Source: Anaerococcus urinomassiliensis
Lineage (GTDB): Bacteria; Bacillota; Clostridia; Tissierellales; Peptoniphilaceae
Direction of reading: 5' to 3'
DNA: 64,000 nucleotides
NCBI RefSeq assembly: GCF_900128425.1
Contig: NZ_LT635782.1
Coordinates: forward strand, 873,501-937,500
In this document: positions 33,860 through 40,203 of the stretch, piece by piece
Position numbering within the stretch: position 1 is the stretch's first letter
Layout: each line of letters starts with the position of its first letter
Position numbers and translations under genes: made by a program
The notes under the pieces: generated by a model
What the model saw: the letters and a program-made list of their open reading frames with translations, nothing else
What the model was told of the DNA's origin: nothing
Database searches by the model: none

Positions 33860-35311
33860 CTAGTTTTTGCTATAGTTTGGTGACTCTCTTGTAATTGTGA
33901 TATTGTGTGGGTGGTTTTCTATGAGTGAAGCTGAAGAAATCTTGATAAATTTAGCTTTTTCATAAAGCTCTTTTAAGTCTTTGCTTCCTACATAACCCAT
34001 ACCAGATTTTAGTCCACCTAGTAATTGGTATACTACTTCTCCTACAGGACCCTTGTAGGCTACCCTACCTTCAACGCCTTCAGGAACGTATTTTTTGGTA
34101 TTTGTTTGAAAATACCTATCTCCAGATCCATCTTTCATTGCAGCGAGGGATCCCATACCACGGTATTCCTTGTATTGTCTACCTTCAAATAATATTGTCT
34201 CACCAGGTGATTCTTCAGTACCTGCAAATAGGGATCCGGCCATTACTACTGATGCACCGCAAGCAAGAGCTTTAGTAATATCACCAGAATATTTGATACC
34301 ACCATCTGCAATCACTGGTATGTCATATTTTTTGGCTTCATTTACACAGTTAATTATCGCTGTTATTTGTGGTACCCCTATACCTGTAACAACCCTAGTT
34401 GTACAAATAGATCCAGGTCCTATACCTACTTTTACAGCATCTACCCCAGCTTTTATCAAATCACGTGTTGCATCAGCTGTTGCAACATTGCCTGCTATGA
34501 TTTGCAAGTCAGGATATTTTTCTTTCAAATTTTTGATAGCATTTATTACATTTCTAGAATGTCCGTGTGCTGTATCCACGGTTATTACATCGACATTAGC
34601 CTTTACAAGAGCATCAACTCTTTCAAGCATATCATTGGTAATACCTACTGCTGCTCCTACAACTAGCCTGTTGTTTTCATCTCTGGCTGAATTTGGATAT
34701 TGTCTAGACTTTTCTATGTCTTTTATAGTTATAAGGCCTTTTAGTTTATTATCCCCATCTACAATTGGTAGTTTCTCTACTTTAGCTGATTCCATAAGCT
34801 TGATAGCTTCTTGCATCTTGATACCTTCATAACCTAAAACTAGATTATCCTTTGTCATAATTCCATCGATTTTAACACTTGGGTCATCTTGGAATCTCAC
34901 ATCTCTATTGGTTAGGATTCCCTTTAGATACATTTCCTTATCAACTATAGGCACACCGGATATCCTATAATTTTTCATAATGTCTAAGGCATCTTGCAAG
35001 ATATTGTCTGGATATAGATAAAAAGGATCAGTTATAACTCCATGTTCTGATCTTTTTACAACGTCAACTTGTCTTGCTTGCTCTTCTATTGACATATTTT
35101 TGTGGATAATACCTATACCACCTTGTCTTGCCATAGCTATTGCCATTTGAGACTCTGTAACTGTATCCATGCCAGCTGACATCATTGGTATATTTAGTTT
35201 GATTTTTTGGGTTAAATAAGTTTGTGTGTCAACTTCATTTGGCAATACTTCTGATGGTCCTGGGACTAATAGAACATCATCAAATGTTAATCCTTCTCCT
35301 AAAAATTTCAT
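33860..35311 (-). CDS. guaB: IMP dehydrogenase
   Basis: 483 residues. Oxidises IMP to XMP with NAD, the first committed step to GMP. A catalytic barrel is interrupted by a pair of CBS domains (about residues 93-205: [19 protein letters not shown] and [18 protein letters not shown]). The active-site loop [13 protein letters not shown] near 300 carries the catalytic Cys, and MGSLAAM plus [10 protein letters not shown] form the flap. Its ATG overlaps the purDL stop by one base. Inclusion in the biosynthetic operon would tie GMP branch flux to de novo synthesis. Confidence 0.96.
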
Positions 35312-38300: not shown

Positions 38301-40203
38301 GTCTACAGTGGTCTGACCAATAAGTATCCAAGATCTTCATCTCGGTTTCGTTTGGATCACGACCTTCTTTGGCAAAATATTCTCTTACAAGTCTTATATC
38401 ATCAAGGCTCATTGCCATGGAATTTTCTTCTAAAAATTTACTTAAGCTACTATCGTCAAAATTTCTAAAGCCACTAAAAACAATATTTTCCAAATTCTTA
38501 TGATTATCTGATTTGAGTGTTGTTGGAATACCTAACAAGTTAACTTTTTGAGAATCAACAGGATTTATTAAGAATTCCTCAATCCTTTCTAAATCCTCGT
38601 CGTTAGCCCCAGATATTTCATAAACTGTCGAAGCTTTTACTAATAAATTAGAATCATCTATTATCAAAGAAGCTGTATCTATTACACCTTTTTCTCTAGG
38701 ATTGAATTGACCTGGCAAATATTGGCTTACTATTGTTTTTCCAAAAGATGCTTGTAATTTGATAGCCTGATCATAAGCATAAACTTCATCAACTGGTGCT
38801 TCTGCCAGGACCTGATATAATAGCTTATCTAGATTCTCATCATTTGTTTCAAGGTCATATCTTTTGTAAATTTTGATGTCATCTAAGCCTATGCCCAAAG
38901 AATTTTTTATCTTTGTCTTAAGATTTCTGGATGCAAAATCATATTTGTCTTTTCTTTTTACATATACTCTTTTTACTGATGGACCAATATCTTTTCTGTA
39001 GTATTTATTCTCAAAATTTACTTTGCCAGCATCTTGGTAAACTTCCCTTATTGCTTGATCAAAAGTATCAGCTTTTGCAACTATATTTAATACTCTGCCT
39101 CCAGAAGTTAGTATTTTGCCATTTTCTTCTCTTGTTCCAGCATGGTATATTGTAGATTCTATCCCATCTTCAAATAATATTTCTTTATCTTTTTCATAAG
39201 ATCCTGGATAACCATTAGATGCTAAGACTAAGCAAACTGCTTTCCTATCATTTATCTTAAGATTAATATCTTTTAGCCTTCTTTCAGACGTTGCTATTAA
39301 TAAATCAAGTATGTCATTATCAATTAGTTCTAAAACCACTTGGGTTTCCGGATCTCCAAATCTAACATTGAACTCCAAAACATAGATACCAGATTCATTT
39401 ATCATAAATCCTATGAATAAAACTCCTCTGTAGTCAATATTTTCCATGTTAAAGCCATCAATAATATTTGGAAGAATTTCTTTTTCGATTTTTTCTGTAT
39501 AAGCTTCTGCTTCTATATTTGGTGCATAGGTCCCCATGCCACCAGTGTTTGGACCAACTTCTTTTTCAAATATTTTCTTGTGGTCTTTGCTTGTTGGTAA
39601 TGGAATTATGGTTTGAGAATCTGTCAGACATAGTAGACTCATCTCGAAGCCATCTATATATTCTTCTATAATTACTTTTCCATCTTTGGTAATAATTTCA
39701 TCAAGAGTATTAGTAAGATCTTCTACGTTATCTATTATTGATACACCCTTACCAGCAGCTAAACCATCTCTTTTTAAAACTACTTTGCCATTTTTTTCTA
39801 ATAAATTTTTACCATAATTTTCTGCTTCTTTTTTATCTTCTGTGTTAAGATAAGCTGCAGTTTTTATATGGTATTTATTTAGAAACTCTTTGGTAAATCC
39901 CTTGCTTGATTCAAACTTAGAAGCCTTTTTATTTACACCAAATATTTTAAGATTATTTTTTTCAAACTCATCTACTATTCCTTGGCATAAGGGCAATTCT
40001 GGTCCAACTATAGTAAAGTCAATCTCATTATTTTTTGCAAAATCTACAAGCTTTTCAATATCATCTACTTCTATATCTATGTTTTCTCCAATATCAGAAG
40101 TACCACCATTTCCTGGTGCAAAGTAGATTTTTCTATCATTTGCTGAAATTTTCTTGCCAAGGGCGTGTTCACGACCCCCAGAACCAATAATCAGTATATT
40201 CAT
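35311..40203 (-). CDS. Fused phosphoribosylamine-glycine ligase and FGAM synthase (PurD-PurL)
   Basis: A single uninterrupted ORF of about 1630 residues. Residues 1-408 are a complete PurD ([37 protein letters not shown], closing KYYRKDIG). Residues from about 410 are a complete long-type PurL with no linker: [13 protein letters not shown] start, [50 protein letters not shown], then a C-terminal glutamine amidotransferase domain with [10 protein letters not shown] (nucleophile Cys) and SHGEGRF. The two enzymes catalyse non-adjacent steps (GAR formation and FGAM formation), flanking PurN. ATG 40203 has AAGGAG 8 nt upstream; the preceding in-frame codon is a TTG. The fusion removes the need for purS and purQ. 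Confidence 0.93.

Follow-up and report, generated by a model that had tools for sequence, protein, structure and literature searches.

In yeast, PurD and PurM are joined in the protein Ade5,7. Eukaryotic GART combines the activities of PurD, PurN and PurM, i.e., steps 2, 3 and 5 of purine biosynthesis (parts of PMC6287904 and PMC10912719). Fusions of purD and purL were described for Clostridium novyi NT (NT01CX_2418) and C. botulinum BKT105925 (CbC4_1757; strain name as printed) in the available sections of PMC3890548, where the MetaCyc, RAST and SEED assignments agree on them. According to the conserved-domain hits given there, PurD forms the N-terminal part of a much larger chain with PurL, and these sections present both fusions as annotation repair only. 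The available parts of PMC3261824, PMC12547972, PMC6287904, PMC5919458, PMC10912719 and PMC7478625 do not mention a PurD-PurL fusion, and the accessible text of the open-licence literature searched does not describe how widely it occurs, whether it arose once or how it was split in the family analyzed here.

The same arrangement, an N-terminal PurD followed by PurL in one chain, was found in a stretch of 64,000 nucleotides from Anaerococcus urinomassiliensis (contig NZ_LT635782.1, positions 873,501 to 937,500), hereafter the window. The sequence-only reading of this DNA knew of no described PurD-PurL fusion, but the two Clostridium cases are such fusions; since they were reported in PMC3890548, as far as its available sections go, the architecture was already known. 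No fused PurD was found among 129 matches in 136 genomes around G411, a sample that may lack C. novyi NT and C. botulinum BKT105925. As in GART and Ade5,7, as far as the sources at hand describe them, PurD of the window is fused to an enzyme of a later, partly non-consecutive step. However, the partner is PurL (step 4), whose equivalog model matches the second part over its whole length, and PurM is not in the chain of PurD. The fusion is thus not of the GART type, because purM is a separate gene (32355-33374), as is purN. On the minus strand, the gene is part of an operon-like run with the order purF, purN, purH, purD-purL, guaB, purE, purM, purC:

42260..43603, minus strand: purF, first gene of the run (TIGR01134, 454 bits)
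41709..42263, minus strand: purN, GAR formyltransferase, the step between PurD and PurL (TIGR00639, 144.9 bits, slightly below the cut-off of 150.1; Formyl_trans_N, 128.8 bits)
40216..41721, minus strand: purH, directly upstream of the fusion (TIGR00355, 566.4 bits)
38980..40203, minus strand: PurD half, glycinamide ribonucleotide synthetase, residues 1-408 (TIGR00877; Pfam GARS_N, GARS_A, GARS_C)
38956..38991, minus strand: junction, residues 405-416 (12 residues), no linker between PurD and PurL
35314..38979, minus strand: PurL half, single-chain FGAM synthase (TIGR01857; Pfam FGAR-AT_linker, AIRS_C, GATase_5), in the order PurS-like N-terminal part, FGAR-AT linker, AIRS-type domain, GATase_5
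35311..35313, minus strand: stop codon TAA of purD-purL, 1-base overlap with the ATG of guaB (TAATG)
33860..35311, minus strand: guaB, IMP dehydrogenase, directly downstream of the fusion (TIGR01302, 633.9 bits)
33374..33850, minus strand: purE (TIGR01162, 177.6 bits)
32355..33374, minus strand: purM, separate gene (TIGR00878, 429.8 bits)
31664..32344, minus strand: purC (Pfam SAICAR_synt, 151.7 bits; no NCBIfam match at E 1e-40)

The steps of PurD and PurL are indeed separated by that of PurN, as had been noted from the sequence, and purN is a separate gene in the same run. Upstream of purF, the gap contains a promoter-like site (11/12; 43842-43869, minus strand); in total, the scan gave 48 sites against a shuffle mean of 50.7, i.e., no excess. 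Rfam models matched a T-box leader (1374-1553, minus strand; 94.2 bits, gathering score 93) and a uup RNA (55183-55230, minus strand; 65.8 bits) in the window, and none matched near the pur genes at the gathering score.

The purD-purL ORF extends on the minus strand from an ATG (40203-40201), preceded by a ribosome-site-like AAGGAG, to a TAA (35313-35311) and encodes 1,630 amino acids with no internal stop. The sequence-only reading named no strand for these coordinates; the plus-strand translation of 35311-40203 is full of stops. TIGR00877 (purD) matched residues 1-408 with 446.8 bits (NCBIfam cut-off 288) and TIGR01857 (FGAM-synthase) residues 411-1626 with 1,454 bits (cut-off 1057.05), the latter over profile positions 1-1239 of 1239, which identifies a long-type single-chain PurL. 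Both the uninterrupted passage from PurD into PurL over 1,630 residues and the complete long-type PurL of the sequence-only reading were confirmed by these results. Its complete PurD stands for the domain; what is missing are the 1-12 residues after the DIG motif that adjacent standalone PurDs examined still carry before their stop, often followed by a ribosome-site-like stretch before purL. The KYYRKDIG given there as the end of PurD corresponds to residues 400-407, and residue 408 is a proline.

The N-terminal part of the PurL half, which we take to be PurS-like, was not matched by any Pfam model. PDB sequence matches assigned the first part of the chain to GAR synthetases and the second to FGAM synthases; one weak match was to another enzyme. 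The fusion is the sole PurD above the family cut-off in the genome, with one other place reaching 19.7 bits, below the cut-off. Cys1479 (in GICNGFQ), His1546 and Glu1548 (both in SHGEGR) are present in the PurL half as its glutaminase residues. Among 49 aligned fused rows of the family, the Cys was found in 47, the His in 46 and the Glu in all 49. The PurL half has lost both Cys and His in G031 (L169) and G100 (L175) and the His in G099 (L177), and judging from these residues the three fused proteins may depend on free ammonia. The PurD half contains RFGDPETQ at residues 281-288, which matches the PS00184-type motif R[LF]GDPEx[EQIM] (form as in the available part of PMC3261824), and RFGDPE is invariant in 49 of 49 fused rows.

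At the junction, Pro408 and Arg412 are invariant in the same 49 rows (4 of which are duplicates of others), and the pattern is DI[G/A/S]P-x-[V/I/L/T]-x-R. Between window residues 395 and 430 (35 alignment columns) no row has an insertion or deletion. A stop or frameshift near codon 408, named in the sequence-only reading as a result that would refute the fusion, is absent from all 49 rows, and the single-chain fusion is borne out.

For the distribution of fused and split states, 130 genomes of the window's family were searched, 121 of which had a PurD match. PurD and PurL were found in one frame of at least 1,600 amino acids in 55 of these 121 genomes, in 16 genera. In addition, the fused frame of G004 runs up to a contig end. 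The genus of the window is represented by 31 genomes including the window's own: 16 are fused, besides G004; seven are split, with purL beside purH (purL being broken in G030); five have a different pur operon; and two have no PurD match (G010, and G023 with a broken purL). Six of 80 loci examined are fused, namely the records of Anaerococcus sp. 9403502, Mediannikoviicoccus vaginalis, Peptoniphilus rachelemmaiella, Aedoeadaptatus coli and P. catoniae, and L060. The PurL of the Anaerococcus sp. 9403502 record is identical to that of G024, a member of the window's genus, which fits the assignment of this genus to Anaerococcus. The identity of the fused PurL halves goes down to 46%. Frames of 975-999 amino acids in G002, G011, G016, G020 and G028 had suggested a second kind of PurD fusion; this candidate was rejected, as the count had crossed a stop and ORF calling gave PurDs of 412-445 amino acids.

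In two surveys of 391 genomes of the class (330 and 291 matched), no stop-free PurD-PurL frame was seen outside the window's family among the matches listed. The two genes seem to be in one frame with a single TAA between them in G293 and G205. Adjacent purD-purL pairs, close or overlapping and in the same order as in the window, occur in Coprobacillaceae, Peptostreptococcaceae, Erysipelotrichaceae and other Clostridia; they differ from the window in the stop that separates the two genes. Other forms of purL were observed as well: it is broken into two or more frames in G030, G023, G080 and G131 (L125, L127, L165 and L216), PurL is divided near residue 230 into two genes in G112 (L182), and G042 has a two-gene purL and purQ-like arrangement (L132).

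The history of the two halves was analyzed with quick trees, whose deep forks are weak. In the PurD tree (103 rows), 49 family fusions, two standalone PurDs described below as relics and the broken G080 form one clade (SH-aLRT 100) that excludes the standalone PurDs found in split lineages. The PurDs of Coprobacillaceae and of three Peptostreptococcaceae adjoin the fused ones (support values 81 and 67, the latter weak). In the PurL tree (101 rows, after the truncated G123 and G131 were dropped), a single clade (100) unites the fused PurLs of these lineages with the split ones, and split PurLs are nested within the fused ones at two places, besides G080. A topology with a clade of fused PurLs only was rejected (p-AU 3.5e-45; 78 of 103 rows, thinned). 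The placement of the fused and split halves fits one fusion followed by at least two fissions, in which PurL would have been retained and a standalone PurD of different ancestry would have taken the place of the fused one. Relatives with two genes had been named as possible counter-evidence. They do occur (the seven split genomes of the genus), but they do not undo the fusion, because their PurL appears to descend from it and their PurD is of other descent.

The gene neighborhoods fit this history of fusion and later fission. At the fused loci L171, L177, L180 and L205 the order is purC-purF-purM-purN-purH-purDL-purB. Split loci have purH-purL-guaB, (purC-)purF-purL or purC-purL-purB, or purL alone (G121, G122, G137, G140, where no neighboring pur gene was found). 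Split genomes contain a second pur cluster with purD and without purL (L122, L167, L190, L193, L219), which includes purE, purM and purN in all five cases and varies in purC, purF and purH. In L193, the old purC-purL-purB run lies directly beside this second cluster. No PurD remnants were seen 5' of the split PurLs of 18 genomes, for G131 considering the first piece of the broken purL only. The upstream sequence is the end of purH in G001, G003, G007, G008, G009 and G014 (in G030, the neighboring gene is purH), the end of purF in G034, G130, G131, G134 and G139, and the end of purC in G092 and G096.

Outside the family, a PurD-PurL fusion in the same order was found on one contig of one Christensenellaceae MAG (JAISKW010000084.1; L060:1-4824). 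The start of its PurD is truncated where the contig ends, and its join is longer, with one in-frame GTG and no ATG. Since it falls outside the family clade in both the PurD and the PurL tree, this fusion looks like a separate event.

Two genomes of genus g55 (G121, G122) contain a standalone PurD that is extended at its C-terminus by a long tail, of 135 residues in G121, with similarity to the PurS-like part of the fusions:

L163:6799-8520, minus strand: tailed standalone PurD of genus g55, with a full PurL elsewhere in the genome
L164:6356-8026, plus strand: tailed standalone PurD of genus g55, with a full PurL elsewhere in the genome

In G121, the full PurL is about 29 kb from the tailed PurD. 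BLASTP with the G121 tail matched the fusions of G086 (E 2.8e-8) and G079 (2.8e-9) over nearly the whole length and that of G064 (1.0e-9) over residues 19-134; matches of 50-60 residues each were obtained with the window (8e-4) and the PurL of its own genome (2e-4). No Pfam model matched the tail, as for the same stretch of the window. The dN/dS of the tail was 0.41 compared to 0.105 for the PurD part, ratios that are rough because synonymous substitutions approach saturation (dS about 1.1-1.2). The tail evolves faster and seems to be under constraint. By sequence, the tailed PurD is a probable relic of the fused state. The fused lineages with which the relic PurDs group (support 92) differ from those next to the PurLs of these two genomes, and a transfer or duplication may therefore have been involved.

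Across seven pairs of fused genomes, dN/dS ranged between 0.08 and 0.16 for the PurD half and between 0.03 and 0.11 for PurL beyond its first 150 residues. The PurS-like part gave 0.06-0.27 (six pairs with a value), the highest value belonging to the faster pair G012/G015. On these ratios, both halves are under purifying selection. An AlphaFold2 model of residues 1-575 (72 alignment rows) reached a pLDDT of 95.4 and a pTM of 0.92, with 96-98 in the junction blocks; it covers 575 of 1,630 residues, and high model confidence does not prove that the unit is rigid. The prediction is thus of a single unit made up of PurD and the PurS-like domain, with a short and ordered join. In a fold comparison with this model, the 50 matches listed were PurD and other ATP-grasp entries, and no PurL or PurS entry was among them. 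This absence is no evidence against a PurS-like domain, because one domain can fill the list.

Taken together, the ORF most probably codes for one bifunctional PurD-PurL enzyme of single origin, with later losses of the PurD half (probability roughly 0.87). The chain would catalyze step 2 (PRA to GAR) and step 4 (FGAR to FGAM), and step 3 would fall to PurN, encoded by a gene of its own in this operon-like run. The fusion would have arisen once, near the base of the Peptoniphilaceae-type lineages, from neighboring purD and purL genes, by loss of the short PurD tail, the stop codon and the spacer, so that ..DIG passes via Pro into PurL. At least two lineages would later have dropped the PurD half and kept PurL; their standalone PurD, of other descent, is encoded in a second pur cluster without its own purL. 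That a stop was lost through an error of sequencing or assembly has a negligible probability, because the same open frame is present in 55 family genomes, with one junction pattern in the 49 aligned rows. It is very unlikely that PurL is also or mainly made separately, whether from a start codon within the frame or through cleavage of the chain at its junction. Such a start is hinted at by the codon after the junction proline, the old PurL start position, which is ATG, GTG or TTG in 10 of 49 rows, and by a TTG at codon 436 of the window. However, the ten rows all belong to other genera, the codon after Pro408 of the window is TCA, and window codons 361 to 435 include no in-frame ATG, GTG or TTG. 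The same holds from 29 codons before to 27 codons after the proline in 15 of the 16 fused genomes of the genus, the sole exception being G024 with a GTG 20 codons before it; the junction is, moreover, predicted to be ordered.

The likeliest benefit of the joining would be a fixed 1:1 supply and co-location of the two enzymes flanking PurN, which is plausible. A harmless joining that persisted by descent, without any gain from tethering, is a serious contender at somewhat less than even odds. It leaves the bifunctional chain untouched and agrees with the adjacent purD-purL pairs of several other Firmicutes groups, where one deletion would suffice, with the fact that the fusion was apparently undone at least twice and with the separate location of both genes in the split relatives. 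Against it, the fusion was kept across a deep divergence (46% identity of PurL halves), none of the 49 rows has a linker and the proline is invariant, and L060 together with the published Clostridium pair hints at recurrence. The earlier suggestion of channeling can be carried further, with GAR and FGAR being handed along the chain via a PurN docked between the halves. We consider this improbable, even if purN is encoded in the same run, the model predicts a single unit of PurD with the PurS-like domain, and channeling from PurF to PurD has been proposed for bacteria (available parts of PMC10912719 and PMC3261824). To our knowledge, GAR and FGAR are not known as unstable; the docking of PurN between the halves is a postulate of the channel alone, and the fissions indicate that the fusion is dispensable. 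In the same two papers, PRA passes from PurF to PurD. For this reason, joining PurD to PurL alone would not protect PRA, and a direct hand-over between the halves is not expected, because PRA comes from PurF and PurN acts between them. As at least two lineages appear to have split the fusion, the data argue against any need for tethering, and the fusion was dispensable over evolution.

The PurD-PurL protein of the window is a tidy case of gene fusion and later splitting and not a new system. For annotation, it calls for caution, since one name for the whole chain makes a genome seem to lack purD; the case in PMC3890548 was found through that apparent absence, according to its available sections. 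A more distant prospect concerns PurD and the PurS-like domain as a dedicated docking unit, whose g55 tail would still bind PurL or PurN in trans. This is improbable; if true, a physical PurD-PurN-PurL assembly would persist after gene splitting, and the fused, split and relic forms would together record a small bacterial purine metabolon. A single bacterial family shows the joining of two genes, their separation when one half was lost, the takeover by a copy with a different ancestry and what is probably a fossil domain; it is therefore a good natural test of whether tethering pathway enzymes matters.
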